Positions 15,373-64,000 of a stretch of DNA of 64,000 bases are shown one piece after another. The notes under the pieces were generated by a model that was not told the DNA's origin, made no database searches, and saw only the letters and a list, made by a program, of their open reading frames with translations. This DNA is from Hermatobates lingyangjiaoensis. Its lineage: Eukaryota; Arthropoda; Insecta; Hemiptera; Hermatobatidae. The DNA is taken from positions 1,550,001 to 1,614,000 of the forward strand of contig JAPFBL010000103.1 of NCBI GenBank assembly GCA_026182355.1. The letters are read 5' to 3'. A program made the position numbers and the translations under genes. Numbering within the stretch: position 1 is the first letter of the stretch; each line of letters starts with the position of its first letter.

Positions 15373-15785
15373 TTTTGTTTTGTTAAGAAAACCTATTTAT
15401 ACGGATATATTTTCTATAATTTATAATAGCTTTTATTGCTAAATATTTGTAAAAATTGAAATGACTGTACATATTAATACAGACTTAAAATTGTATGATG
15501 ATTATCTTAGAATAGACAAATTCACACAATTATATGTGCGAATATATAATTGCATTGAAACGAAGTGGGTAGGAGAGAAAATAAACTTTTCTGCTGAAGC
15601 CGAAAAACGCACTGAAATCGCAATAATTTTGAAGGATTTCTCAGATTGGGCAATGGTGCACTGATGAACAAGGATAGGACCAGAAGCCATAGTTCCGGCT
15701 TTACATTCCCAATAACGCCTAATTCTTTATCAGCGTACAATTCAATTTGTATTATATGTATACTTTGCATACTATATATATATAT

Positions 15786-15978
15786 CAATGATCAAACCAC
15801 AATAATAAATGGGAAAACAAGACTAAGATCTTTCAACCGTAACAAGCGGCCTTCGTCAGAGTCAAAAACCTAACTGAACAAAAACCAGAGTTGGGTTTTT
15901 GACTCTGACGAAGACCGCTTGTTACGGTTGAAAGACCTTAGTCTTGTTTTCCCATTTCTCATTGTGTTTTGATCATTG

Positions 15979-15980
<2 letters not shown>
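15786..15980. mobile_element. Foldback Penelope terminal-repeat pair (family 1) in a (TA)n tract
   Basis: The arms are near-perfect inverted repeats. The left arm starts CAATGATCAAACCACAATA and the right arm ends TTTGATCATTGAT. Between them lie the GGGAAAACAAGACTAAG and GTAACAAGCGG words in both orientations. The centre is a short spacer. TATATA tracts flank both sides. The same outer ends recur in at least eight places in the window, while the inner junction varies. This is expected for pairs of terminal repeats truncated to different extents. The link to Penelope-like elements comes from the adjacent GIY-YIG relic of the copy at 36 kb. Confidence 0.65.
15892..15955 (+). ncRNA. Hammerhead ribozyme-like motif, family 1 (mutated)
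   Basis: CTGACGA at 15905-15911 is followed by stem II (GACCG / CGGTT), GAAA, then AGACCT (a mutated AGATCT) and TAGTC. Stem I pairs GACT with AGTC and TGGG with CCCA around a T-rich internal loop, the layout of type I hammerheads. The stem III word has lost its self-complementarity in this copy. The intact version is at 58950-59012. Confidence 0.55.

Positions 15981-16058
<78 letters not shown>
15981..16058. repeat. (TA)n and (TTA)n microsatellites
   Basis: A TA tract of about 28 bases is followed by about 15 TTA units. It abuts the foldback element and may have been its insertion target or an expanded tail. Confidence 0.85.
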
Positions 16059-16495: not shown

Positions 16496-16710
16496 TCAAT
16501 GATCAAACCACAGTATGAAATGTGAAAAAAAAAACAAAGCTCTTTCAACCGTAACAAGCGGTCGTTGACTGAACTGAGACTAAACTGAATTTGGTTTTTG
16601 ACTGAGGAAGACCGCTTGTTATGGTTGAAAGATCATACACTATTTTTCCCATTTCTTATTGTGGTTTGATCATTGACTGTTATTTCACATTTTTATTGTG
16701 AAATCTTGTT
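16496..16710. mobile_element. Diverged family 1 foldback element
   Basis: The same outer words are present (ATCAAACCACA on the left; TTATTGTGGTTTGATCATTG on the right, followed by TTATTTCAC and GTGAAATCTTG). Both arms hold the GTAACAAGCGG / CCGCTTGTTA words. The arms have diverged by scattered substitutions, with no A-to-G bias like that seen at 36.5 kb. The terminal hairpin word pair TTTCAC / GTGAAATC marks the true 3' boundary of the family. Confidence 0.6.
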
Positions 16711-16711
16711 A

Positions 16712-17133
16712 ACTACTGCATGATGAAGAAGTTATTTAAAACATAGAAGATGAAATACAGGTCTTCTTTAGAAATGATATATCTAATCCTGCGTTACAAT
16801 AGAAGCAATTAAATTATCTGATTGTCGTAATATATATCATCATTGTGATAATTAAAAAAATATTTCTAAATTATTATATTTCCTAATTTAACAGAATAAC
16901 TATTTGAAAACAACACAAGATATAATAACTAATTCAACAGCATTGTTTCATGATGAATTAAATCTAAGAAATATATTATATAAATAAAGCTTTATATGAC
17001 ATTAAGAACAAACTATACTCACATTTCTTGAAAACAGTAATAAATATTGGATTAATAGTGATTAATACGTAATTAACAAGAGTTGTAATTGAAATCATTA
17101 GTTGTGCAATCCGTAATTGTGTGGTATTTACTC
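16712..17133. other. AT-rich spacer, nothing recognised
   Basis: No gene or repeat was supported between the two foldbacks. Confidence 0.4.
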
Positions 17134-17423
17134 ATTCTGAGGTAAAATGGATAAACCAACAAAAGTCTCCACACAAATGAAGTTTTTTATTCAACGCGTT
17201 TCGAACACTTTGTGTTCATCATCAGGAAAACACCAAGGAAGTGGTGCTGACGGGTTGGTCAAATGAAAACAAAACAAATGTTGGTTGTTTTCATTTGACC
17301 AACCCGTCAGCACCACTTCCTTGGTGTTTTCCTGATGATGAACACAAAGTGTTCGAAACGCATTGAATAAAAAACTTCATTTGTGTGGAGACTTTTGTTG
17401 GTTTATCCATTTTACCTCAGAAT
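17134..17423. mobile_element. Near-perfect 290-bp foldback, ACGCGT family
   Basis: Two arms of 137 bp (17134-17270 and 17287-17423) are inverted copies around a 16-base loop. I saw only one clear arm difference, ACGCGT on the left and ACGCAT on the right. The arms hold GGATAAACCAACAAAAGTC at the outside and a hammerhead core inside. Such identity implies recent formation or ongoing arm-to-arm conversion. No protein is encoded. Interpreted as an inverted pair of Penelope-type terminal repeats. Confidence 0.7.
17185..17232 (-). ncRNA. Hammerhead ribozyme-like motif with palindromic stem III ACGCGT
   Basis: On the - strand CTGATGA (17225-17219) is followed by stem II GAACAC / GTGTTC with an AAA loop, then GAAA, ACGCGT and a T, giving a GUU cleavage triplet. 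Stem I begins C-G, T-A, T-A. All invariant core bases of a type I hammerhead are present. Stem III can only be made stable by pairing with a second molecule, because ACGCGT is self-complementary. The right arm carries a second copy on the + strand in which the word is ACGCAT. Confidence 0.7.
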
Positions 17424-19912
17424 AAGTTGTAATTGAATATAACCTTCACTATAAAGCAGTATCACTTAAGATAACTTAATAAAAGGAAGGTCAACGACAA
17501 CCATTAAGCATGAAGAGATAAAAGTGCGATAAACTGTATATCAGCATTGCATGGGAATGACATAACTTTTAACTGCAGTAAATAACATAAAAGCTCAAAC
17601 ATAAATGGATATTTTTTTAACATAATTAATCAGTTAGTTGTAATGAAATATTCACATTAATTTAAAACTGTACACCATTTTTCATTTCAGTTTATATAAA
17701 GGAAAGGTTTGTTGTGTTGTGACTATACGATGAAGAGTATGTTCTCTTACAAAAACGCAACCTCATATGAAATACAATATTGAAATAAATATCATGATTC
17801 AATTCTGGAAGACAAAATTCAATAGATATTATAAGGTTTTAATTAACAACTCTAATGACAATTTTTCTTGAAATAAAAATTTTCTTAAACATATTCTTTT
17901 TTTTTTAGACAATTTTTTTTGGAAATTTTGAATGTAGAGTGAAGATGTTGTAGATTTTTGTCTCGACATATCAAACACGAATCCGTTTTACGAACCATTA
18001 TGAAAACTATTTGACTGGCCCTGACCTGAGATGTCTCAAAATAATAATGCGTTGAAATCGCATTTTGATATGATATTGTTATGCTTGGATGCTTGGATAC
18101 AAAGGGGTAGTAGTCCTTGGATTGGTTTATAACGTTGTCCGTCTTCGTGAAAAAATTCAATAGTTAATCTATTAATGAGATTTCAACTGACCTGGGTGAT
18201 ATTAATAATAGGAATTTATTTACATGTTTTAATCTTTTAAGCATGTAAATTTGTATATTCTTCTTAGATGATAAAGATGTAATTTGTAAAAGTAATAATC
18301 AGACAGAGCAGCCATAATGAACGAACAGTATTTTAAAAGAAATATGAAAGCGTCAGTTTTGATTATCGCATTATTTCGTATCAAAAACGTTTGAAAAAAA
18401 CAAGATTGTTTCAAAGTCCTGTGATAGCATAATAAATTGCTTTCAAAGAACGTATTCTCTCAAAAGAATAGTATAAAACTATTTACCAAGATTGTGGCTC
18501 CTTTAAAAAAGTAATAGAATATTTTTGTGACCATACAGTATTCAGAATGGTTGGAAGGAAGGAATTGAGAAGAGCGCTTTAACTTATTAATATCATGAAA
18601 GAAAGGATTTGTTGGCCAAAAATGTTTTCATGGCTGTGATTAATTTCATTCTGGACAATATTAGTAAAGGACAAGCTGTAATAATTGTTTTAGCATAAAA
18701 ATGTGAAAGTTTCGTTTTAGTATCTTACTACAAATGAGAAAAATACTTAGGAAAACCGATGAAGGAATAGATTCCTCAATTGAAGAGAAGTGTAGCAGAT
18801 TTTAGATTGGATAGTGTCTTTTTCTCTTATTTTTTGTCCAACTTCTACTTCATTCTTATCTTTCCTATTCTTTTACATACTTCTTAAGTTCTCATTCTCT
18901 GTATCTGTTCCTCCTTTATTTGTAGTTTACATCTGTAATCCTCGGGAATTTCTTTAACAAGCGAAAATATTTTTTTTTTTTTTTTAAAGGCTGCAGAGCA
19001 TATGTGTAGCATGTAATACACAGTGGAACATGCTGGAATAAAATACAAAATAAAAAAAATAAGAAAGCATATGTGTATTGCTTCTGTTGATGTTTCACTT
19101 TTGCGAGGTATATTTTGGGTATATTACGCATACTGTTGTTTTCCGTACTTCTAGTGAGATGTTTATCAATTGGTGGTGAATGGGCTCCACGTTAAAAAGC
19201 ATCTAATTAATATCCTTTATCATGGGATATTCTGATTAAGGTACAGGACTGAATCGAAAAGGATCACATCAGAACTAACATATTTATGAAATTCTTTATT
19301 GTAATAAGTCTAAATATAGAAAGTGTGCCCTATTGTAGAATTTTATTTCAATGATTGATAGTATTTTTTTTATATAGGATGATTTCTATGATTTGATTGT
19401 GGAAGTTTGTTATTTAGTGATAAATTACTGAGTACTGTTTTCCTGGAAGGTTCAGAATCTCTGTTGCAGAGTGAACAAGCAAAACTGTAGAAACGACTTC
19501 CTATTGCCTCACTCATACAACTAGAATCATTCTCTCATATTCCTCAAGGATGATTGTCTTAGTTTTATCAAACATCTAAACAACTAAGATTAATTAAAAT
19601 ATAGAGAAAGCAGTGCGACAAGAAAAAAAAGAAGTGAAAGTATTAATTAGGAAAAAGGAACAAAAGGTCAATCTAGGCGGGATGAGTAGGCTCTTTCACT
19701 GTAATAGATATCTGGCTCTGATCTGTCATGCATGCTAAAGAAATCCCTGTTCATTACTTTCCCTATCCTCAACAACCCTTAAAACAACCTCTTTGAAAGG
19801 ATTTAAAATCCTACGTTTTAAATTTAAAGATCTATATACATATAAAACTCTGATGCTTCTGTTTAAATGTGTGCACACAGGTGAAAATTGAAAAAGTAAT
19901 AGAATTTGTTTC
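17424..19912. other. AT-rich non-coding DNA, nothing recognised
   Basis: About 2.5 kb without a supported gene. Open frames are short, AT-driven and match nothing I know. Poly-A/T runs occur at 17899-17908 and 18970-18986. Confidence 0.4.
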
Positions 19913-20636: not shown

Positions 20637-20689
<53 letters not shown>

Positions 20690-20690
20690 G
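20493..20690. repeat. (TA)n tracts around a hammerhead-like fragment
   Basis: TA microsatellites at about 20493-20516 and 20635-20689 enclose, on the - strand, a motif CCGATGA, GACGACTGTC, GAAA, TATCGTT and GAGTC (20560-20600). A related + strand copy is at 50428-50470 (CCGATGA, GGATGTC, GAAA, TATCGAA). Both lack the CT of CTGATGA, so this family is probably inactive or uses a variant core. Confidence 0.5.
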
Positions 20691-20744
20691 GTACTGTTTT
20701 CTTGACCACAAATTACTAACAAACACTTTTTCTTCTTCTCGGAA

Positions 20745-20895
20745 TTTGGTCAGGGTAAATATATGGAATCACCTTTTTGCCAACGTTTCGTCTTTATTAT
20801 TTAAATAATTAATTAATATTATTATTTAAAATAAAGACGAAACGTTGGCAAAAAGGTCATTCCATATATTTATCCTGACTAAATTCCGAGAAGAA
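20745..20895. mobile_element. Foldback element with GAAACGTTGGC arms
   Basis: The left arm reads (in reverse) the same as the right arm: AATAAAGACGAAACGTTGGC, AAAAAGGT, ATTCCATATATTTA and AATTCCGAGAAGAAG. The arms meet in an AT-rich centre at about 20805-20825. The arms begin inside the ribozyme (GACGAAACGTT is retained, CTGATGA is lost), so the inversion junction cut through the hammerhead. The TA tract at 20911-20958 borders the right end. Confidence 0.6.
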
Positions 20896-20908
20896 GAAAA
20901 AGTGTTTG

Positions 20909-20910
<2 letters not shown>

Positions 20911-20958
<48 letters not shown>
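20911..20958. repeat. (TA)n microsatellite
   Basis: An uninterrupted TA tract of about 48 bases next to the foldback element. Confidence 0.9.
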
Positions 20959-20959
<1 letters not shown>

Positions 20960-26910: not shown

Positions 26911-29443
26911 GCCCACCATTTCAGGGAAGAAGATATTGATGGTATTAAAAAGTGTTTATTATTATTATTGGTATTTATATTATTTTATTTCAGTTACTGC
27001 ATTACAGGGTTAAATATATTTTGTAGAGTTCAGAGAATGTTTTTTTCTTTTTGCTCGAAATGGGCAAATCAGGACATTAGATGAATTAACAGTAATTATG
27101 CGTTCTCTTGGAATGAGTCCTACAATTGCAGAGCTCAAAGGTTATCTCAAGGAAAAAGGTATTTATATTTTGGTCAGATTACCTTTATGTTATATTTTTG
27201 ACACAATATTGAAATGAATGTTTCCATTGTACAAGGGGTATGAGTTTTGTTTTGCATTCTTAGAAGAAAAGGGACACCAACGATATCTATCAGAAAGTGA
27301 TATAAAAAAATGGAATTATGATTCATCAGGCTATTTCAATCTTTCCTGTTTTGCTATAGGGCCTATCAATAATTTAACTTCTACTATTTTTCTTTCGTTT
27401 TTAGTCGATTCTTTCTGTTTCATAAGTTTGATATTGTTTAGAATAAAGTTTTAACAAATTTACTTGTAATTCATGTAAATAGTATTACATTTTTAATTTT
27501 TGCTGGTGGATTATTATATATAATAAGAGAATCGGAACTTCGCAAAGTCGATTGGACACCTCGATTAAGGCCATTCTGTGTTGTATGTGTTAGATGATGT
27601 AAATTGTTATTGAAAAATGGAGTGAGTTTACGAGCCCTAGAGTTGACAAATCAACAATGGCCAAAATGTTTATAAAACTAATTTGTGTTAATAATTTCAA
27701 AATGAAAACATGGATGGATTTTGTTGTAATTGATAATTTCAGGCAAATATTGTCTATTTATTAGTCTCAAAGAAGTGTTTGGTCTTCTCCCAAACCTTGA
27801 ATATAGCAAGAACTAATTAAACTTATATTGAAATAAACATTACTGCAATATAAGTATGAGTTGCTATTTAAGAAAAAGAAATCACTCCAAAATTCCTACT
27901 GGAGAGTAGGGAAACCCTTATAACCTCTGTGTAAAGGTCCTTCTCTGTAAACGCTGGGGCTCTTAAAGTACACTCTAGTCAATAATTCATTTGATTATAA
28001 CAGTGATATAGGATTAGATTTAAAAACATGGTGAAAGACTTAGGCATATGGTGGGTACTTTAAATTTGTATTTACGTTTGTAGATGTCGTTTATTTGGAT
28101 ATTTAATGTTTGTCTTCTTTTTTCTGTGCCTTCACTTTGCCCTTCGTATATGGAATATATTTATTGTACTACACCATTGATGTTATTTTCTGTCAAGGTG
28201 GTAAAATGTCATTCCCTGACTTTTTAAAAGTAATGCATGAACACAGTCGAGTTGAGAAACTCCCTACAGAAATAATTGAAGCGTTCCGTGCTGCTGACCC
28301 CCAGAGGAAGGGAGTGATACCTGCTTCGCAACTGAGACATATGCTTCTCAAATGGGGAGAACATCTGAGTCCCAAAGAAGGTATTCTTTGTATATTCTTT
28401 TTGTTGATCTCATTCTTACTATCCATATTTCATTTTTTAAGATATCAGTTCCTTGTTTCAATTTATGCTTGATGTTGGTTTCTTTGTTTATTTTATTGAG
28501 GTATTTGGTGGATCTTGGAACAGTCTTAATTGTCTTCTACAAATGGTTTACAATAGATCAACTCAAATATCTTAGGCTGAACACAATAGAAGAAAACTGG
28601 ATCAAATTGTTTAGAACACTGATTCATATTTCTTGTTTAATTTATCTTCGTTACTCCATTTTATATAGACAGCATATTTAGTATATATAATGGCTATTTT
28701 GAATATACTTGTGCTCTTGATGCTTTTTGTTCCAAACAGATTTTTTGTTCATAAGAGAAATATTGCGAAAATCAACGAAATAAGTATTTTGACATTTCGA
28801 CTAAAATGAATTATCCACTAAATGCAACGAAAGTTCAAGAATAAAATATGGAGTCACACTATCAGAAGAGTGGTTTTGTAATTTATGTAAATATATGTTT
28901 ACTTTTAAACTCATGTGTATTATCATAGATGCACAATGTGTTTCTGCTAACATCAAACTTAATTATGTATGTACCATTATATATTTGAAAGAAATCTCGA
29001 TTTACTTTTGCCACTGTTATTTTAATTATTAATTTATTTAATTTTATTTAATTTAAGGTCCTGTTGCTTTTTACTTACTTGTATTACACTGTTTAGTTAT
29101 TTATATTACAAGTTATTCTTTGTATTGACTTTTCGTTCTACTTTTACCGATAATAGTGAATTGCAATTACACATTACTTTCTTAATTCCTCTGAAAGTGT
29201 TTGAATTTTTTCAAGAGTATTCCCTGTATAGTCCTCAATAACGTTTAACAACTTGTAAGTTATGCTCCATGGATATTAAATTGTAAAGCTTATGTTGGTT
29301 ACTAAACTAAGTAGTTTATTTGTTATAAATTTTATGTTTCAGTCGAGCAGATCTTCAGAGAAGCCAATGTTACTCCACATTCCATGGTTAAATATGACGA
29401 CTTTGTCAAGATAGTTTGCGCTCCTGTTCCTGATTATTATTGA
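26911..29443 (+). CDS. CALML4: Calmodulin-like protein 4 (CALML4-type), four coding exons
   Basis: Coding exons are 26911-26941, 27027-27158, 28198-28380 and 29343-29443 (stop TGA at 29441). All have GT/AG introns and consistent phases, giving about 148 residues after a start codon in an unseen upstream exon, as in calmodulin genes where ATG stands alone. Exon 1 encodes AHHFREEDID; exon 2 FRECFFLFARNGQIRTLDEL and MRSLGMSPT; exon 3 KMSFPDFLKVMHEHSR to LSPKE; exon 4 IFREANVTPHSMVKYDDF. The order of four EF-hand helices is calmodulin-like. The loops are shortened or lack the acidic ligands: loop 2 is nearly deleted, loop 3 ends in Gln instead of Glu, loop 4 starts with Ala. Calcium binding is therefore unlikely. 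The REA-N-V-x-P motif and VKYDDF resemble vertebrate CALML4, a light chain of the microvillar myosin Myo7b. Ordinary calmodulin is excluded by these losses. A good splice donor (AGAG then GTAACG) after the stop suggests a spliced 3' UTR. Confidence 0.85.
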
Positions 29444-30539: not shown

Positions 30540-31412
30540 GAAAGCTTGTAGACACACTATGTTAATATAGCGTAAATAGCAGAGCACAACACTCAATGAG
30601 AAGTAAATTGAAGTTGTTATTTCTACTGAAGTTAGTATGAAGCAGACAGTCAAACTTACTCTGGTTTAACTGCCCAAGGGCCACTTTGACTCCAAATAGA
30701 AACAGAGTCTGCAGTTAATTACAACTTCCATCTTCTTTTCTAGCTGTTAAAAAATCCAAGTTCCCATTGAATTACTTAAGAAAAATTGTTATGAATCCTT
30801 AAGATCCAGTAGTAATTTTAAATGAAATCCCTGTTAATAATAATACTATTATAAAATAATATACTAATATTATAACAAAAAAATTATAATAGAAATATGA
30901 CACACGTTACTAAAAGAATTTAGTAAAGTTTATGAGGTGTTGTAATGTTGCTATTACTCCCAGTGAACAGTGCTATCAGTCATTCTTAGTTGTTTCCAAC
31001 CCACACATAAAGAGGATTTCTTTATTACTTCCATATTTTATTAATCCAATTAAATACATGTGTATACAAAATTGTCGCACTTAAATTAAGAAAGTAAATT
31101 TTGTAAGTACACACACAAAGGAAGGTAATAGTGCTTTTAAAAAAATTGTACAACATAATAGTCTTAAACACTTTGAACACATAAAACGCTTCAAAAGCTT
31201 CCATTTATTACTTTCTCTATTTTAGAGGAACATCGGTGACTTGGGAGTGGGAAATTAAATGACCACTAAAGAATAATCTGTATTCACTGGCAGGATACAG
31301 TCACAATTTAATCAAATGACATATTTACTTATCATTAGTCATATTCTTCTTTCTTATTTTTGTAAAAAAAAATAAATATTGTTTTCATTTTAAAACAATT
31401 CTGGTTATTTCT
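30540..31412. other. AT-rich non-coding DNA, nothing recognised
   Basis: No supported gene or repeat. Confidence 0.4.
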
Positions 31413-31468
31413 TATTGTGGTTTGATCATTGATTGTTATTTCACGTCTTTATTGTGAAATCTTGTAAT
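31413..31468 (+). repeat. 3' end fragment of the family 1 Penelope repeat
   Basis: TTATTGTGGTTTGATCATTG followed by TTATTTCACG and TTGTGAAATCTTG is the same end that closes the foldbacks at 16.7, 37.4 and 59.1 kb. The ribozyme part is missing. A short TA tract follows. Confidence 0.7.
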
Positions 31469-31518
31469 ATATATATACTTTTTTTGATGAAAATACGATC
31501 CGAAATGGACAAATACAG

Positions 31519-31737
31519 TTCAATGTACATAAAGAAACGTAGCGAAATTAAAAACACACACTTACAGTCTCTAATTTTTGGTTGAACTGTCTTCAGGAGA
31601 GATAAGAAAGGGAAAACAAGCTCTGTACCAGTGCGCTTGGTTTCCCTTTCTTATCTCTCCAGAAGACGGTTCAACCGAAAATTAGAGACTGTAAGTGTGT
31701 GTTTTTAATTTCTCTACGTTTCTTTATGTACATTGAA
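31519..31737. mobile_element. Foldback element with AATT-type hammerheads
   Basis: Inverted arms start TTCAATGTACATAAAGAAAC and end with its complement at 31737, with AAACACACACTTACAGTCTC inside and a spacer near 31615-31640. The left arm on the - strand has CTGAAGA (31596-31590), CAGTTCAACC, AAAA (GAAA mutated), AATT and GAG pairing CTC. The right arm on the + strand has CAGAAGA, GGTTCAACC, GAAA, AATTA and GAG. Each arm has one different core mutation, so neither is fully canonical. The consensus is the intact copy at 62903-62941. Confidence 0.6.
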
Positions 31738-32094
31738 TTATATATATGGTCCATCCAATATTTAGAAATAAAACTTTTGGAGATCTTGTGTTCTTAGTAT
31801 CTGAGATATTTCAAATATATAGAAGAAAACTAGAGAGATAGTCAAAGAAATATATATATATATTATTGAAAATTACACCAAATTTAGCTGATACCTGTTT
31901 CTTAACAAGATTCTCAATTGCTTTGAATGACACTCTCGTTATTTCATCTGCACAATAAAGTACATCTCTTATAGTCTGATATATAGATCTATTAGAATTA
32001 TCCGTGAGAAATTTAAGAAATATGATGGAAATTATTTATAGGTTGTTTATGGAAGGTATAATAGTAAAATAATTGGTCATTTCACACTTATAGT

Positions 32095-34815: not shown

Positions 34816-36125
34816 GAAGTTACCTTCCTACATGATTTAAATCATGGATATAAATACCTATTTTAACTCAATGGTGCCAATATATATGCCTAAATTAATG
34901 CTTTGGTAATAACAATATGCATGTATTTAATTTGATATTGTTAGATAATTTTAATTATTTGTTATGTAATCAAACAACAAGGTAATTGTTATTACGGATT
35001 TATTATTTTTCTATTTTCTCCATGTTTCTAAATGAATTTCAATTACTAAAGGTTTAGTTAATTACCCGAAATTTCAACTTACTATTCTTATAGAGTATCG
35101 GTAACTTATAATACAGTCCACTTCTTTTCTTTCAACCTGTTTCCTATATTAGAAGGGGCACGTTGCTTTTCCAAATTGACAGTTCTTTTTTTTTGTGTCA
35201 AATATTAATTATGGCTGATACTATGTGTTTTCATTATCTATTTTTTTTTATTTTTCAGATTCTAGATTATGTGGCACTGGATTGACAGTCTTTTTTCTAA
35301 TTATGCACTCAGTATTAATTGAAGAACTGGAAATATTTATATATATTTTGTAATTGCATTATATTTATTAAAGAAATATATTTTTTTGTTTGCTAATTTC
35401 GAAATTATTTTTCATCTAATATTGATTTGCCGTTTATTCTATATGTATCCATGATACTGTCTTGTGGTGGTGGATTTTTTGCATGATATTTTAATGAAGG
35501 TTGTGTTTGTATGAAGGTGGGTCTTACTCATACTAAACCTAGATTTTTCTTCATTTAGTCCAAATTAAAGGACTTTAGAAGTATGAGGATGAGTATGATG
35601 AGAAGTATGAGAAGAGAGTTGGAAAAGTCGGGGGTGGGGGGAGAGTTGCCACGATTACAGAGTCACAAATATAATGAAGTATATGTATCAAATACATATA
35701 AATAAATAAAATTAATAATTTTTTATTTAAATAAATATAAACCATGAAATATATTTGTATATTTTTTTAGAGAAATGTTGCTGCTATTTGTTAAAAAGAG
35801 TTCTAAACTTCTCTTTACAGACATCGTATCTGTATTCTGGAAAACAAGATTGCTGTCTCTTCTGGTATGTTCGTAACAGACTTTGGGTTAATAAGGCAAG
35901 GTTAAACTGACATTATTGACCCAAGACTTTTAATTAACTCTTTTTCTATTAGTTTTGATACCTCCTGAATTCTAGAACATGTAAATCTCATGTTTTCAAA
36001 TAAATAAATGTTAAAAAAAAATTAATGAAAATATTATTTTAATGACATCTAAAATAAACTATAACGAAAGTTTCTACAATTAACTGTCTTTCTATTTTTC
36101 AAATAAAAAATTATTTATCATATAA
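34816..36125. other. AT-rich non-coding DNA; possible remote UTR exon
   Basis: No gene is recognised. A T-rich acceptor ending in CAG at about 35259, followed by 130 bp with AATAAA-like words, could be a 3' UTR exon of the CALML4-like gene, but nothing in the sequence proves it. A G-rich spot (GGGGGTGGGGGGAG) lies at 35631-35645. Confidence 0.3.
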
Positions 36126-36128
36126 TAA

Positions 36129-36168
36129 TCAAATTTCAAACCACAGTAAGAAAAGGAAAAAAAAAGAC
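36129..36168 (-). repeat. Family 1 Penelope terminal fragment preceding the endonuclease relic
   Basis: TTTCAAACCACAGTAAGAAA and AAAAGACTAAG are diverged versions of the family 1 outer arm. They lie directly upstream of the GIY-YIG relic, so terminal-repeat pieces border the coding relic on both sides. Confidence 0.6.
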
Positions 36169-36196
36169 TAAGCCTAATAACATAGGCAATACGCTA

Positions 36197-36548
36197 ATGA
36201 AAAACTCTTCCAGGGAACTGGAGTCTGGTGGAATTTATAAAATCCCATGTAAAAATTACCATAAGATTTATATTGGTCAAACTGGTAAATCTTTAAAGAC
36301 ACATTTAAAACAACACCAATACAACGTAAGTAGACAGGAAAAAAGTAGCGGCATATTCTTGCATATAAATAATGAAAATAATCACGTTGATTGAACAAAA
36401 GCTAAATTTATTACCTTTGAAAAATTGATGTTGTTAAGAAATATTATCAATTCCTCTCTGGTTAAATTTAATACATCAAATGTTATAATCATTAGTAATG
36501 GTTTGTTCAGACTTGAGTCAGTCCTAATGAGGGCAATATCCACATCTA
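36197..36548 (+). pseudogene. Penelope-like GIY-YIG endonuclease relic
   Basis: The frame reads GGIYKIPCKNYHKIYIGQTG, then KSLKTHLKQHQYNVSRQEKS, FLHINNENNHVD, a stop (TGA at 36392), and on in the same frame TKAKFITFEK, then INSSLVKF and IIISNGLFRLESVL. This is the GIY-YIG nuclease domain found at the C-terminus of Penelope-like retroelements, including the Cys after IYKIP and the downstream Trp-Thr-Lys-Ala (Trp is now a stop). The usual catalytic Arg in the K-x-R-L-x-x-H stretch appears as His, so it is inactive. No reverse transcriptase is left upstream. Its position just before the family 1 repeats ties that repeat family to Penelope-like elements. Confidence 0.8.
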
Positions 36549-36551
36549 AGA

Positions 36552-37053
36552 AGATCAATGATCAAACCACAATAAGAAATGGGAAAACAAGACTAAGATC
36601 TTTCAACCGTAACAAGCGGTCTTCGTCAGAGTCAAAAACCCAACTGAATACTAGATGCAGAAAACATCTGGTGAGGAGTTTTCTGCATCTAGTGCTCAGC
36701 CGGGCCTCCGACACCGACGAAGACCGCCCGTTACGGTTGAAAGATCCCAGTCCTGCCCTCCCACCTCTTATTGTGGTTTGATAATTGATTTCACATAAAC
36801 ACGTGAAATAACAATCAATGATCAAACCACAATAAGAGGTGGGAGGGCAGGACTGGGATCTTTCAACCGTAACGGGCGGTCTTCGTCGGAGTCGGTGGCC
36901 CGGCTGAGCACTAGATGCAGAAAACTCCTCACCAGATGTTTTCTGCATCTAGTATTCAGTTGGGTTTTTGACTCTGACGAAGACCGCTTGTTACGGTTGA
37001 AATATCTTAGTCTTGTTTTCCCATTTCTTATTGTGGTTTGATCATTGATTGTT
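36552..37053. mobile_element. Palindrome of two family 1 foldbacks
   Basis: Two hairpins (36552-36790 and 36814-37053) are themselves reverse complements of each other, centred near 36802 at a terminal word TTCACATAAACACGTGAA. Outer arms (36552-36650 and 36960-37053) have the usual sequence. Inner arms (36692-36790 and 36814-36910) carry a GC-rich variant in which A has become G (or T to C on the other strand) at about 18 sites. Each hairpin also has a small internal hairpin of ATGCAGAAAAC words. There is no protein function. Confidence 0.7.
36961..37023 (+). ncRNA. Hammerhead ribozyme-like motif, family 1 (stem III word mutated)
   Basis: TGGG, T-rich loop, GACT, CTGACGA (36974-36980), stem II with a CTTGTTA loop, GAA, ATATCT (from AGATCT), T, AGTC and CCCA follow in the correct order. 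Compared with the intact copy at 58950, a single change in stem III breaks its self-complementarity. Confidence 0.6.
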
Positions 37054-37244
37054 GTTTCACGTGTTTGTGTGACATCTAAGAAGATTGACACCTAGTGGAT
37101 AGTTTTTTACCTTTTCTTACTGTACTCCTTTATTTACCCAAACATCCTCCCTGGAATATGGTCCTATCCTGCGCTTTACATCCTTTTAAATGCTACTCTT
37201 CCCTATCATTCCCCTCAATCCCTCACCATGATGTTTCTGCATCT

Positions 37245-37380
37245 TATGTTTCAGTTGCGTTTTTGACTCTGACGAAGACCGCGTGTTACGGTTGAAAGAT
37301 CTTAAACCTTTTTTTTTTCCTTTTCTTATTGTGGTTTGAACATTGATTATTATTTCAGGTGTTTATTGTGAAATCTTGTT
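37245..37380 (+). repeat. Single (non-inverted) family 1 Penelope terminal repeat
   Basis: TTTTTGACTCTGACGAAGAC, GTTACGGTTGAAAG, ATCTT, TTATTGTGGTTTG and the end GTGAAATCTTG occur once without an inverted partner. The hammerhead core is complete (CTGACGA, GAAA), but stem I is changed (AAACC in place of AGTC). This is useful as a stand-alone copy for defining the repeat. Confidence 0.65.
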
Positions 37381-47589: not shown

Positions 47590-47968
47590 ATTAGACTCCT
47601 GTTCCATATATTGAAAACTACCTTATTACAGATTGAATCATAAATCATTGTCCTTGTTCCCTTTATGCAGATTGTCCTATTGCAGACTTCATCATAAACC
47701 TGCCAATGTACTTGTTCCCTTGGTGAAAACTGTTTAATTACAGGCTTGTACATAAATCATTACTCTTGTTCCCTAATTCAAATTGCTTATTACAAAGTGA
47801 ATATAACCCTTACTCCCGTTCCCTTGATGGAGAATGCCTCATTACTAATTGAATTATAAACAATAGATTCTCTTGTTCCCTTGATGGAGACTGCTTTCAT
47901 TCTGAACATACATCACTCCTTTTGTTTCATTGCTGGAAATAATATTATTACAAACTGATACATAAATC
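47590..47968. repeat. Degenerate minisatellite, about 7 units of 52-58 bp
   Basis: Units are spaced 46-58 bp apart and begin near 47593, 47639, 47692, 47750, 47802, 47854 and 47906. Each contains a version of CATAAATCATT, then CTTGTTCCCTTGATGGA, then CTNATTAC and a GAAT or TGTA end. Units have diverged by many substitutions, so the array is old. It starts only about 70 bp past the donor site of the tachykinin peptide exon, so it lies in the following intron or the 3' flank. Confidence 0.65.
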
Positions 47969-48033
47969 AAACATTCGGTTAAATGTCTGTATTAGAAGTG
48001 GAATGACCACTGAAGACTGTAGTACGAGTATAC

Positions 48034-48268
48034 CTGGGTGTGACTGCTGAAGTAGCTGAATCAAGGTATTAACATAGTCAGAATCATCTTTCTTCCCGCG
48101 AACACCCACGAATCCTGAAGGCCCTTTCTTGCCTCTCATCCCGAAGAATCCCGCTGGCACTTTCTTTCCTCTTGTTCCATAGAAACTTGAAGGTCCTTTC
48201 TTTCCCCTCATTCCGAAGAATCCTGAAGGTCCTCCTCTTTTTTCATCGTATAAATCCCAGAAATAGTC
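48034..48268 (-). CDS. Tk: Tachykinin exon with four tandem peptides
   Basis: The exon starts after TTGTTCCAG with DYFWDLYDEKR and then four repeats: GGPSGFFGMRG-KK, GPSSFYGTRG-KK, VPAGFFGMRG-KK and GPSGFVGVRG-KK, followed by DDSDYVNTLIQLLQQSHPG and a GTATAC donor at 48033. Length is 235 bp. The second peptide is unusual: Ser replaces the common Gly before Phe, and Thr sits before the final Arg where Val or Met is normal. KK cleavage sites instead of KR are typical of insect tachykinin precursors. The acidic DDSDY tail is spacer. Confidence 0.88.
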
Positions 48269-51200
48269 CTGGAACAATACAGCCAATCAATGTAAAGAAA
48301 GAAAGTAATCATAGTTCATACGACATTACGTAATCGTGATAAGAAATTCTAATTAATGCTTAATATTAAATAATAAAATAGTAATTTTTCAATAAATAAA
48401 AAAACAACTCACTTCAACATTTCCACCCCCTTTATTATCAGGAAAATATATCAGTGTTTTCCTAAGTGTCTTTCATACACAAAATTACTTACCCTTGGGA
48501 ACTTTTTATATATCTTTTCTAAAGTAAAAGTTATTTTACATTAATTTTTTCTTTGCTATAAAAGAATTATGAAAAGTAGCCTTGAAATATTTTAAAGCCA
48601 TTTACAATATTCTCCATTTATACTTATTTACCTGACTGATAAATATTTTTTTCGACTAAGGAAGTAAACATAAAAGAATTAGTTTTCAATAAGAAATATG
48701 AATATACATACAATTTAAGTCATTAAATTTGAAATCATAATTAGCAATTCCTACAGAAATAAGGTATGTTCACTCTATTACATACAATGTATGTACGTTG
48801 TGTAAAAACACATTATATATAGTTGTTACTTATCCTTTTTGATAATTTCTAAGGAACATATGTTCTGATGCATATGCATATTACTTCTTCAAACATCATA
48901 ATATGATACATAACCATACATATGGAATAACATTTTTTGACATGATTTACATGGTGACTGTTAATTAAGTAATGATGAGCTCTTTTGGGATGGCTGTTTT
49001 GCTACCTCTATCTGAAAAAGTTAAAAATGATACATAACTTAACCAATTTACTGTTAAATAGATTGTTCGAAACTCAATACCAGTTTTCATTGAAACTCAA
49101 TGAAATCTCATTGCCAGTTTTAAATCTCATTTTTACATTTATTCCCAACATTTTTCTATGTCAGGCCATCTGAAGTTTAAAAATTTCAAAAAATACCCTA
49201 AAACTCTTAAATTAACTCTTGAAATCGAAAATGAAAACATTTTAAATTTCAGCTATTTCTGATACAAATGTTTTTATCGAGTATATTTTTCTTGTATTGT
49301 TTATGATGTTGTAATGTTTTATTCTTTCGAACTTTATTCTATGGATAATTGTTCCCAAATACCGACTCAGGTTTTTATTCTGTAGTTGACCTAAAAACAA
49401 ATCAAAGATATTTAATAGATTATCATTAAAGAATAAGTTGATTTCAGATTTACTCTTTGATACTTTTCAAAAGAGTCAGTAAGTTTCTCTAGGGCCGTTA
49501 GTAAAAGCCAAAAGTGTGACAATAGCAATCTAGAGAAAGCTTCGACTTTGTTCATCTTTTCTTCTTATAAAAGCTTTTTACAGAATTGTTTATTTTTTCT
49601 GTTTTATTCATCATACTAACTTAACTATTTACATTATAAAGGTGTTGAAATTGAAAGTAAATCTATTAAAAAGAAATTATATAAACAAAAAAAGACTTAA
49701 TTCTGCGAATCAAACACTGGCGTTACTTTTATCGACCAATATTTAAAGACCACGTTTTCACTGCAAATTTAAATCAAAACAAAACACATAACCACCATAA
49801 AAATTTCTAATAACAAGAACAAGTTCTTATAATAACATTTTTTTGTAAAACAATTTCCATTTATAATTTCAATGTACATAATATTATATATATATATATA
49901 TAATATATATATTATATATATAATATAACGACGTCCGTTGGTCAGCGCAGAGACCTACCCATAGCTATCCATGCTAATTCCCATGACCTCCCTTTCAATG
50001 ATTGTTTCAGGGTACAAATCCTCAAACAAATCCCCGAGTCTAATCCCCATGTCACCCTTAGAGCTTCCGAAGAGGCATTCATATGCCTCCTTGGGGCTCG
50101 TTCTCCTCCTGGTCTCAACCTGTACCGTTAATTATTTTTTATTTTATTTTATTATTATTATTATTATTATTTTATTATTATTTTTATTATTATTATTATT
50201 ATTATTATTTTATTATTATTATTATTTTATTATTATTATTTATTTTTTATTATTATTATTTCGTATTTTATATATTTTTTATCTTGTTTTCTAAATAAAT
50301 ATTGGAAGGATTTCTATTTTTCCTCTCTTCCGCTGGGGAGCAGCATTGCGGTGGTTCCACGAGTTACTCTGGAGGCCAGTAGTAGTTTGCTTCTCAACGC
50401 GAGTACTTCGCACTTCTTCCCGATGACGACGGATGTCGAAATATCGAAGTGAGTTCTGTAGTGTCTTTCTGTGTTCTTTTCTATGTGTTAAAGTATATAT
50501 ATATATATATATATATATTTGTATAGGTAGGCAGCTAATCTTCTTTTAAACAAGTTGAATTGAAATATGCAGCAGCCTCTGCATTTACGACTTTTTTACT
50601 GACTGTCTCTAAATATATATATATACTTAAAATAAACTTTAACACATACAGAAACATAACAAAGACTCACTTTTCAATATTTCGACCGTAATGGCGGTCG
50701 TCCTCAGGAGAGGAAGTTAATTGATGGAGGGACGACAGTCAACTCGTAGAAGTTGTGAGCAGTCCTTCTTGAATACATATATTTAAAAATGTTATTTAAC
50801 TTTTAAATACGTTTTTAACTTCTTAAATAAGTGATATGCTGAATTCACTTATTTAACTGTTTCGAATATTTTTCTAAACTTCTAAACCATTTTTTCCAAT
50901 CTGGGTTGGAATAATTTCTTGAGTTCTTTAAGTTGAATAACTCAGATTAGAAAAAAAGGGTTTCAAAGTGTGAAAAAATATTCGACACATGAATAAGATG
51001 AATTCTGACATAACATTTTTAAATATATATATAGCGATTGGATTGATTGTAATGTTAATTTCCATCCAACGCTGACATACATCCATCATACTGTTCTTGA
51101 TCACCTTCTTTCTTCTCTTCTGATCGAGAGACAGTTGAACAAAAAATTAGGGACTATAAGTGTGAGTCCTTCAATTTTTTTCTTCAGATATATTTCCGAA

Positions 51201-58879: not shown

Positions 58880-59072
58880 TATATTAATGATCAAACCACA
58901 ATAAGAAATGGGAAAACAAGACTAAGATAACTAAGACTAAAACCCAAGTTGGGTTTTTGACTCTGACGAAGACCGCTTGTTACGGTTGAAAGATCTTAGT
59001 CTTGTTTTCCCATTTCTTATTGTGGTTTGATCATTGGTTGTTATTTCACGTGTTTATGTGAATTCTTTTTAT
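58880..59072. mobile_element. Family 1 foldback with one short arm
   Basis: The left arm (ATGATCAAACCACAATAAG to AAGACTAAG) is joined to a duplicated AACTAAGACTAA and a short centre. The right arm is full-length, with an intact hammerhead, and runs on through TTATTTCACGTG and TTTATGTGAA. TA-rich sequence flanks both sides. Left-arm truncation cuts out the ribozyme on that side. Confidence 0.7.
58950..59012 (+). ncRNA. Hammerhead ribozyme-like motif, family 1, intact (stem III AGATCT)
   Basis: Every element is present. Outer stem I is TGGG (58950-58953) with CCCA (59009-59012). Inner stem I is GACT (58959-58962) with AGTC (58998-59001), with a T-rich internal loop between. The core is CTGACGA (58963-58969). 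Stem II is GACCG / CGGTT with a CTTGTTA loop. Then come GAAA (58988-58991), the self-complementary AGATCT (58991-58996) and T as the cleavage base (58997). The internal loop in stem I facing a stem II loop is the layout that gives type I hammerheads fast cleavage. Stem III alone is too short, so dimer action is inferred. Confidence 0.75.
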
Positions 59073-62640: not shown

Positions 62641-62679
<39 letters not shown>

Positions 62680-62800
62680 CGTCAGAGTTGGGTTTTTGAC
62701 TCTAACGAAGACCGCTTGTTACGGTTGAAAGATCTTAGTCTTGTTTTCCCATTTCTTATTGTGGTTTGATCAATAATACCATATATATATATATATATAT
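62641..62800 (+). mobile_element. Family 1 repeat with a 9-base inverted stub, between (TA)n tracts
   Basis: TA tracts (62645-62675 and 62780-62800) flank a right arm complete from TGGGTTTTTGAC to TTGTGGTTTGATCA. The left arm is only CGTCAGAGT. The hammerhead (about 62689-62752) has CTAACGA, a G-to-A change in the core, while GAAA and AGATCT are intact. Confidence 0.65.
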
Positions 62801-62801
62801 A

Positions 62802-62990: not shown

Positions 62991-63032
62991 TTTGCGTCCA
63001 GTTTGGATCGTTTTTTTGAAATTTTGAGTAAT

Positions 63033-63256
63033 ATATATATATATATATATATATATAAAGATTTCACATAAACACGTAAAATAACATTCAATGATCAAAC
63101 CACAATAAGAAATGGGAAAACAAGAGTAAGATCTTTCAACCGTAACAACGGTTGTTACGTAACAACAACGTAACCGTTGTTACTGTTGAAAGATCTTAGT
63201 CTTGTTTTCCCATTTCTTATTGTGGTTTGATCATTGATTCATATATATATATATAT
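63033..63256. mobile_element. Family 1 foldback, ribozyme core lost at the centre
   Basis: Between TA tracts, TTTCACATAAACACGTAAAA and CAATGATCAAACCACAATAA lead inward to GTAACAACGG, and the right arm returns from GAAAGATCTTAGTCTTG to TTTGATCATTGATT. The junction lies inside stem II, so CTGACGA is missing on both sides. The centre contains an extra GTAACAACAACG shuffle, suggesting a template-switch junction. Confidence 0.7.
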
Positions 63257-63292: not shown

Positions 63293-63492
63293 TATGAATT
63301 AAATAGCACAATAAACAATATAAATTAATTAAAATGCTCTAAGGCCTTTCGTCACAACATCATCAGAGAACTAAATGGAACAAGATTTTTTTTTTTTTTT
63401 GGTTGTTTCATTTAGCTTTCTGATGATGTTGTGACGAAAGGCCTTAGAGCATTTTAATTAATTTATATTGTTTACTTGGTATTTAATTCATA
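63293..63492. mobile_element. Foldback, AGGCCT family, with poly-T loop
   Basis: Inverted arms run from TATGAATTAAATA through AAATTAATTAAAATGCTCT to CATCATCAGA on the left, with the complement on the right. The centre is ATGGAACAAG, a T run of about 15 and TGTTTCATTTAG. Both arms hold the ribozyme. TA tracts flank the element. Confidence 0.7.
63415..63450 (+). ncRNA. Hammerhead ribozyme-like motif, stem III AGGCCT
   Basis: GCTTT (63415-63419) pairs with AGAGC (63446-63450) as stem I (one G-U pair). CTGATGA lies at 63420-63426, a minimal stem II within TGTTGTGAC, GAAA at 63436-63439, AGGCCT at 63439-63444 and T at 63445 as the cleavage base. Invariant core bases are all present. A mirror copy exists in the left arm on the - strand (about 63337-63367). 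Confidence 0.65.
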
Positions 63493-63495
63493 TAT

Positions 63496-63665
63496 ATATA
63501 TATAAAGATTTCACATAAACACGTGAAATAACAATCAATGATCAAACCACAATAAGAAATGGGAAAACAAGACTTGTAGTAGTCTTGTTTTCCCATTTCT
63601 TATTGTGGTTTGATCATTGATTATATATATATATATATTATTATTATATATATATATATATATAT
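63496..63665. mobile_element. Family 1 foldback, most truncated form
   Basis: TTTCACATAAACACGTGAAA, CAATGATCAAACCACAATAA and GGGAAAACAAGAC meet the inverted arm after only CTTGTAGTAG. The ribozyme is gone, leaving the outer 50 bp of each arm. TA tracts lie on both sides (63491-63505; 63622-63665). It shows that outer ends are fixed while the inner junction varies. Confidence 0.75.
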
Positions 63666-64000
63666 ATTATATAAAAAGCCAATTTTTTTTCATTAATAAT
63701 TGAATTGTCAATCTCAGGATGTAGACATCCATTAAGCTAGTACTCATTATTATGTATTAAAACAGTATAAATAAAAAGCAGATAATATATAATGTATCTT
63801 TACACATGAACAATTACGTGAGTGGTATAAACAGTAATCATTTTTGTACAACAAAATTTTTTGAATTAGCAATAACAGTTCTAGTAAATATTAATTCCGA
63901 AATAAATGAACAACATAAACTTTATCATAATTAATAAACTGATATAATATCTCAAATTGAACATGAAGAGACGAAAATCACTAAAACAAAGAAATATAAG
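63666..64000. other. AT-rich non-coding DNA to window end
   Basis: No supported feature. Confidence 0.4.

Follow-up and report, generated by a model that had tools for sequence, protein, structure and literature searches.

Organization of the locus

In the window, i. e. the whole stretch of 64,000 nucleotides of Hermatobates lingyangjiaoensis DNA that was analysed, an EF-hand exon lies at 28107-28469. Its closest named matches are calmodulin-like protein 4 of Lycorma delicatula and two leafhopper proteins (79% identity); unnamed matches reach 84%. These matches point to a hemipteran source. A reading frame at 47951-48286 (minus strand) contains repeated GFFGMRGKK-like units and has a collagen-like match just below the Pfam cut-off; we take it to resemble an insect tachykinin-related peptide precursor. 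A relic reading frame at 36107-36391 (plus strand), probably of a Penelope-like element, has a weak GIY-YIG match whose 19.8 bits (E 0.001) fall short of the 22.6 required by Pfam.

The feature under study is a single near-perfect palindrome of 496 bp (36554-37049) with four arms in the order canonical, changed, changed, canonical. Outer arm 1 (36554-36665, plus strand) is canonical, i. e. unedited, and is separated by a loop (36666-36677) from inner arm 2 (36678-36789, minus strand), which carries 18 A>G changes on the minus strand (T>C on the plus strand). Inner arm 3 (36814-36925) is an inverted copy of arm 2 with the 18 A>G changes on the plus strand; it is followed by a second loop (36926-36937) and by outer arm 4 (36938-37049, minus strand), which is again canonical. 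At the palindrome centre, ATTTCAC and GTGAAAT form a mini-hairpin with a weak 7-bp stem (36788-36809), a possible self-priming end. Repeat search revealed a 14-bp direct repeat on the plus strand (left copy 36542-36555, right copy 37072-37085), which flanks the palindrome and is likely a target-site duplication.

The alignment of the window arms is free of gaps over its 112 columns. With changes given in the direction of the canonical arm, arm 36554-36665 and the reverse complement of 36678-36789 differ at 21 of 112 positions, 18 of which are A>G. Arm 36814-36925 shows 21 differences from the reverse complement of 36938-37049 and 20 from arm 36554-36665, again with 18 A>G in each case. Alongside these changes, none of 24 C had turned into T and none of 18 G into A. 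Given a share of 20% for A>G, the probability of finding 18 among 20 differences is 3e-11.

The two halves of the palindrome (36554-36790 and 36813-37049) were 98% complementary in the repeat search of the window; outer arms 1 and 4 are identical except at 1 of 112 positions, inner arms 2 and 3 except at 3 of 112. Thus the hairpins are not independent: the window represents one event that was later doubled, and the second hairpin is an inverted copy of the first. A previous sequence-only reading of this DNA had noted about 18 A-to-G changes among 21 differences in the first hairpin, which the alignment confirms. For the second hairpin it had given about 18 of 20; this count holds (18 of 20 or 21), but the second hairpin is not a separate case.

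At the inner-arm positions equivalent to 36630 and 36636, A and T are swapped between two near-identical 6-base units (TCGGAG/TCGGTG versus TCGGTG/TCGGAG). This swap accounts for two of the three differences between the changed arms.

The repeat family in the window

Further arms of the same repeat family are found throughout the window. Site comparison identified an older single arm (37221-37347, minus strand; A at 17 of 18 diagnostic sites and another base, not G, at the remaining one), an older partial arm (36128-36172, plus strand; A at all 8 aligned diagnostic sites), a short canonical piece (31407-31433, minus strand) and a single canonical arm (62686-62772, minus strand). Family hairpins in which both arms lack G at the diagnostic sites lie at 15784-15980, 16496-16676, 63088-63238 and 63534-63621. 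The hairpin at 58883-59036 likewise has no G at these sites, and one of its arms is identical to arm 1 over 90 bp. In total, the 14 other family arms provide 164 aligned diagnostic site-copies, of which 162 are A, two another base and none G.

The claim of the sequence-only reading that other foldbacks in the window show no such bias was borne out: A>G accounts for 9% of the mismatches in the 78 repeat pairs of the window that lie clear of the changed arms. The sole long run of one type among these pairs consists of 15 T>A in shifted TA repeats. The arms of the other long foldbacks (17130-17427, 20641-20959, 31513-31743) are also free of a one-type bias.

Family arms often abut (TA)n tracts (15982-16011, 62647-62674, 62782-62801, 63032-63057, 63645-63666), which suggests that TA repeats are a favoured insertion target. 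The loops of the hairpins differ between the copies in the window, and we considered that the hairpins arise anew with each insertion. This was rejected, as many genomic matches, compared by overall layout, cover an entire hairpin with the same arrangement.

A hammerhead-like core (CTGACGA ... GAAA with flanking stems) is present in the arm at 36591-36629 (minus strand), and the same block occurs at 15821-15859, 15905-15943 and 58963-59001. These four cores are among the eight strict matches of a home-made descriptor in the window, which has 26 loose matches. The minimum-energy fold of 36956-37027 contains helices like stems I and II, without the full junction, and bases of the core are altered in the edited arms. 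Two further cores of this kind (CTGATGA ... GAAA; 63337-63366, minus strand, and 63420-63449, plus strand) lie inverted inside another foldback. Hammerhead ribozymes occur in Penelope-like elements. Rfam listed no hammerhead match for the palindrome region; its microRNA and other listed matches were under the gathering scores and merely mark hairpins.

Changed arms in the host genome

The host assembly (909,949,117 bases, i. e. 910 Mb, in 1629 contigs) was searched with the 601-bp finding, with its changed centre and with a pattern forcing two A>G changes. After removal of duplicates, the searches with the finding and with the changed centre gave a first set of 49 loci, one of them the window; these have 199 arms, of which 170 are at least 60 nt long. 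An arm was counted as a cluster arm if it had at least five changes of one transition type and if these made up at least 60% of all its changes. This applied to 22 of the 199 arms, located in 11 loci: 17 had A>G clusters and five had T>C clusters, which are A>G on the other strand. Under the same rule, neither a G>A nor a C>T cluster was found in the 199 arms of the 49 loci. The cluster arms contain 285 cluster changes versus 35 others. The latter come mostly from L009, L016, L034 and L055, and 11 cluster arms are without any other change.

With the 601-bp finding as the query, cluster arms were present in none of five loci (L004-L008) and in one of 19 (L010-L028). Of the 23 loci kept from L030-L056, 8 have a cluster arm. 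The two-A>G pattern matches exactly at 46 places in the genome and at none when read backwards. Thirty records were cut out for this pattern. At least one cluster arm was present in 26 and absent in four (L057, L063, L070, L077), and 17 loci were new. After duplicate removal there are 28 edited loci in total (11 and 17), a number that says nothing about frequency where loci were found with edited-type queries (changed centre, A>G pattern). Dropped as duplicates were L001, L002, L029, L066 and L067 (of the window), L003 (of L009), L042 (of L031), L046 (of L034), L059 (of L058), L040, L048, L082, L083 and L086 (of L041), L075 (of L039), L078 (of L037) and L084 (of L016). Stretches of more than 500 bp are common only to L035 and L058 among the edited loci (748 bp at 90%, the element itself).

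The sets of changed adenines differ by locus. In 11 arms, pairwise comparison gave 3 to 16 differing sites among 29 to 43 compared adenines; positions 33, 36, 41, 42 and 61 were changed in all 11 edited arms of the first set. The sequence-only reading had proposed a search for other genomic copies with the GC-rich variant. Many exist, and given their differing sets of changed adenines they do not form an ordinary GC-rich subfamily.

As a control, a two-G>A pattern was searched and matched 130 copies in the genome. Paired transitions as such are therefore not rare in this large repeat family. This is a poor control, since one of its forced changes (CCGT to CCAT) lies at a CpG. Optional further changes were present in 11 of 100 listed G>A copies (one optional site) versus 39 of 46 A>G places (at least one of four optional sites), two figures that are not directly comparable. 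DNA patterns had no match in a genome-contig and a viral-contig collection, neither of which holds insect genomes. When relatives of the GC-rich arms were sought among translated ORFs, 44 candidates came up, none at E <= 10.

Strand polarity and neighbour preference

Pooled over the edited loci, 416 of 1018 adenines were changed on one strand versus 3 of 685 on the other. This polarity was the same in the first 11 loci (15 arm-events; 199 of 479 versus 1 of 360) and in the 17 hold-out loci (19 arm-events; 217 of 539 versus 2 of 325), where the two sites forced by the search pattern were omitted from the counts.

The rate of change depended on both neighbours of the adenine. For the 5' neighbour the rates in the first set were.59 (A),.57 (U),.29 (C) and.13 (G), and in the hold-out.79 (U),.55 (A),.23 (C) and.14 (G). 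For the 3' neighbour they were.67 (G),.42 (C),.39 (A) and.20 (U) in the first set and.72 (G),.47 (C),.34 (A) and.23 (U) in the hold-out. AAG was the triplet changed most (82/96) and GAT the one changed least (3/70). Because the loci share a sequence, sites were taken as the units of permutation (68 distinct sites, one repeat). In this test 5' G was low (p = 0.0001), 3' G high (p = 0.0008) and 3' U low (p = 0.02). In the site-level hold-out test the 5' G effect (p 0.008) holds, as does the 3' G effect (p 0.023); that of 3' U was not significant there (p 0.29).

In hyper-editing sites of Drosophila, G is depleted upstream and enriched downstream of the edited adenine, according to a published report (PMC5550009). 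The neighbour preferences at the changed adenines are those reported for insect ADAR. The neighbour check suggested in the sequence-only reading thus came out in favour of ADAR, with A or U before C before G on the 5' side and G high and U low on the 3' side in 11 loci, an order repeated in 17 others.

Position of the changes relative to duplexes

Two loci, L039 and L058, were examined at the level of individual arms and their flanks, and in both the changes are confined to the self-complementary parts. L039 has four arms within one 14-bp direct repeat (TGTTTATCCATATA). Its two central arms, which lie head to head, carry their changes on one and the same strand: 164 columns of one arm show 33 A>G and 2 C>T, and 121 columns of the other 10 A>G and two others. 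Its outer arms show 13 differences in 208 columns, 12 of them at the ends and one elsewhere. The head-to-head pair of L058 is likewise changed in both arms, one with 15 A>G (203 columns) and the other with 32 (186 columns). Read from the sequence, the changes in L058 start within the stretch complementary to the second arm. Compared with L035 there are four A>G differences in 475 columns, all in the complementary part. The preceding 407 bp of coding/UTR sequence contain 142 A (125 of them not after G) and not a single A>G versus L035, although this clean part is nearest to the palindrome centre. Changes in the duplex part next to a clean coding/UTR part fit editing of an RNA duplex and not a general failure at palindromes.

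In six of the 28 loci (L009, L035, L039, L055, L058, L068) both arm orientations are changed on one strand, as would be expected if the head-to-head pair formed the duplex. The other 22 loci have no such zone. Of 40 edited zones, 33 are followed on the 3' side (of the changed strand) by a clean arm in reverse orientation; four are followed by a reverse arm with mixed old mutations, two by an arm of the same orientation and one by no arm. ADAR normally edits both strands of a duplex. Since the reverse arm is mostly clean (33 of 40 zones), one has to assume either a template switch or a duplex partner elsewhere, and the simple hairpin, which the sequence-only reading had considered as the edited double-stranded RNA, is probably not the edited duplex. 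The (TA)n tracts between head-to-head edited arms look unedited by eye, which counts against editing. In the mirror palindromes (window, L009, L016, L058) the changes are largely common to both halves.

The element, its insertion and a candidate enzyme

The repeat probably belongs to a young element of a family that we take to be Penelope-like, as judged from weak GIY-YIG matches. Besides the relic frame in the window, a GIY-YIG-like frame in L058 (E 0.0047, under the Pfam cut-off) leads into the arms in the same sense. A search for relatives of this piece gave two candidates, none at E <= 0.001. When the genome was searched with a 467-bp 3' piece of the L058 element, 40 of 1743 candidates were scored: the piece itself and 39 further full-length places, with 99% identity. 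On seven contigs (C46, C43, C25, C24, C14, C5, C3) copies of this 3' piece face outward in inverted pairs with a spacing of about 2-3 kb and 99% identity, apparently a common insertion form of the young element. A GIY-YIG-like coding piece beside the arms (window, L058) and copies that often lie in inverted pairs may be features shared with Penelope-like elements.

Direct repeats of 12-17 bp were found at five of 16 edited loci examined (L016, L038, L039, L041, L055), and the one in the window is 14 bp long. Six of the remaining loci have no direct repeat and five have only TA-rich, short or element-internal ones. The host genome contains six matches to A_deamin (PF02137) on two contigs; by this domain, ADAR is not told from other members of the Pfam family.

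Alternative explanations

A sequencing artefact, in which long reads miscall a single foldback arm (A as G, T as C) and the consensus keeps the error, was favoured at first in view of the changed arms in a four-arm palindrome. Two reports describe nanopore reads as less accurate in the second part of inverted duplications (PMC7229812) and strand-specific miscalls of CCCTAA as CCCTGG, i. e. AA to GG (PMC9414165). A clean arm followed by a changed arm is the layout expected of such second-arm errors, and a strand imbalance would spoil just one arm. The whole-genome comparison overturned this reading. Foldbacks of the same sequence do not fail alike, as seen from the near absence of cluster arms in L004-L008 and L010-L028, and the changed adenines differ by locus although the underlying sequence is near-identical. 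On three contigs (L040, L041, L048) with 98.7-99.1% identical flanks, all 12 A>G of one arm are shared (80 of 80 columns in all pairs), which argues against miscalling; in the second arm L041 is the same as L048, and L040, which lies at a contig end, departs from the two of them at 2 of 55 columns. Miscalling would also have to spare the coding/UTR part of L058 nearest to the palindrome centre, and the neighbour preference fits ADAR. The gap-free alignment of the window arms speaks against it, as do, being weak evidence, homopolymers of up to 27 A/T in the window. We regard an artefact as very unlikely. Error-prone synthesis of DNA or cDNA during foldback copying, for example with G placed opposite T or C opposite A, and with RNA editing playing no part, would account for the strict strand asymmetry and for a clean arm beside a changed one, as if the latter had been copied from the former. 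Judged from the strand polarity, many A:C mispairs would be needed if the clean arm was the template. The preference on both flanks of the changed adenine matches ADAR instead, both head-to-head arms are changed in L039 and L058, and the coding/UTR part of L058 is unchanged. This makes a polymerase origin very unlikely.

The five hot sites changed in every edited arm of the first set speak for a pre-existing GC-rich subfamily or for GC-biased gene conversion. Such an origin is contradicted by the variation of the patterns between loci. In addition, G is absent from all 164 diagnostic site-copies of the other window arms, and the 22 cluster arms contain few changes of other types or, in half of them, none; a subfamily or gene conversion is therefore highly improbable. 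The same sites can be read on the other strand as C>T, so that a GC-rich ancestral form would have become A-rich by cytosine deamination. We consider this reversed polarity scarcely credible, since the old as well as the young arms of the window are without G at the diagnostic sites and A is the majority base in the genome set. Neutral divergence was rejected on the site counts in the window, the mismatch spectrum of its repeat pairs, the clusters in the genome and the locus-specific patterns.

Probable editing, reverse transcription and insertion

The GC-rich arms are thus very probably DNA copies of retroelement RNA in which adenines had been deaminated to inosine by an enzyme of the ADAR type. 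This reading draws on A>G changes on one strand, locus-specific patterns, the neighbour preference of ADAR, the recurrence at 28 loci and the location of the changes in duplex parts at two loci. Editing followed by reverse transcription had already been proposed in the sequence-only reading, and both the comparison with other copies and the neighbour preference favour it.

A possible course of events is the following. RNA of a young Penelope-like element with head-to-head copies of its terminal repeat would fold into a hairpin, and ADAR would edit the hairpin duplex. The reverse transcriptase of the element would then read inosine as G. If reverse transcription begins on the unedited 3' arm, or switches from it, this arm would stay clean; alternatively, the edited arm may have been paired with an upstream arm that was later lost. 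The edited cDNA would be inserted with duplication of the target site. At several loci besides that of the window, and in the window as well, this cDNA may moreover have been copied onto itself to give a mirror palindrome, perhaps by self-priming at the hairpin end, since the mirror palindromes largely share their changes between the halves.

Relation to known systems and implications

Reverse transcription and integration of edited RNA are known from A>G hypermutated retroviral proviruses such as RAV-1. The likeness to our loci is that edited RNA was reverse-transcribed and integrated; here, however, retrotransposon copies at 28 loci of an insect assembly are concerned. ADAR editing and the reverse transcription of edited RNA are known processes, and what may be new are scars of the ADAR type at retrotransposon loci. 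Hyper-editing by insect ADAR (PMC5550009) shares with the present case the A>G clusters on one strand, the depletion of G before and its enrichment after the edited adenine, and the duplex substrates; its trace is in RNA, whereas here it is in genomic DNA. In the model of deaminase-driven reverse transcription for somatic hypermutation and cancer, deaminated RNA is copied back into DNA; in these papers (PMC5704389, PMC11817618) the process is somatic and inferred from mutation spectra, whereas the present loci are inserted copies with a readable strand, duplex and flanking preference. A survey of 'DNA editing' in retrotransposons (PMC2873906) likewise deals with one-type clusters in retroelement copies and warns of systematic sequencing error. 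Its signal is G>A (APOBEC), with A-to-G/T-to-C clusters counted for comparison, whereas the signal here is A>G. Among the results listed by a non-exhaustive search of the open-licence literature, there was no account of ADAR-type scars in retrotransposon copies of a genome.

We think it fairly probable that editing of retrotransposon double-stranded RNA by ADAR in the germ line has given rise to heritable mutations again and again in this host and that edited cDNAs keep inserting. If this is true, ADAR is a DNA mutator of mobile elements, which cripples copies and at the same time creates new sequence variants. RNA editing is normally traceless once the RNA has decayed, but the 28 loci appear to hold the edited state in DNA. 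The genome would then record, in readable form, the places, times and strength of ADAR action. Three questions could be put to genomes alone: does ADAR encounter the RNA of retrotransposons in germ-line cells, what is the frequency with which edited RNA is reverse-transcribed, and are mobile elements held back or made more diverse by editing?
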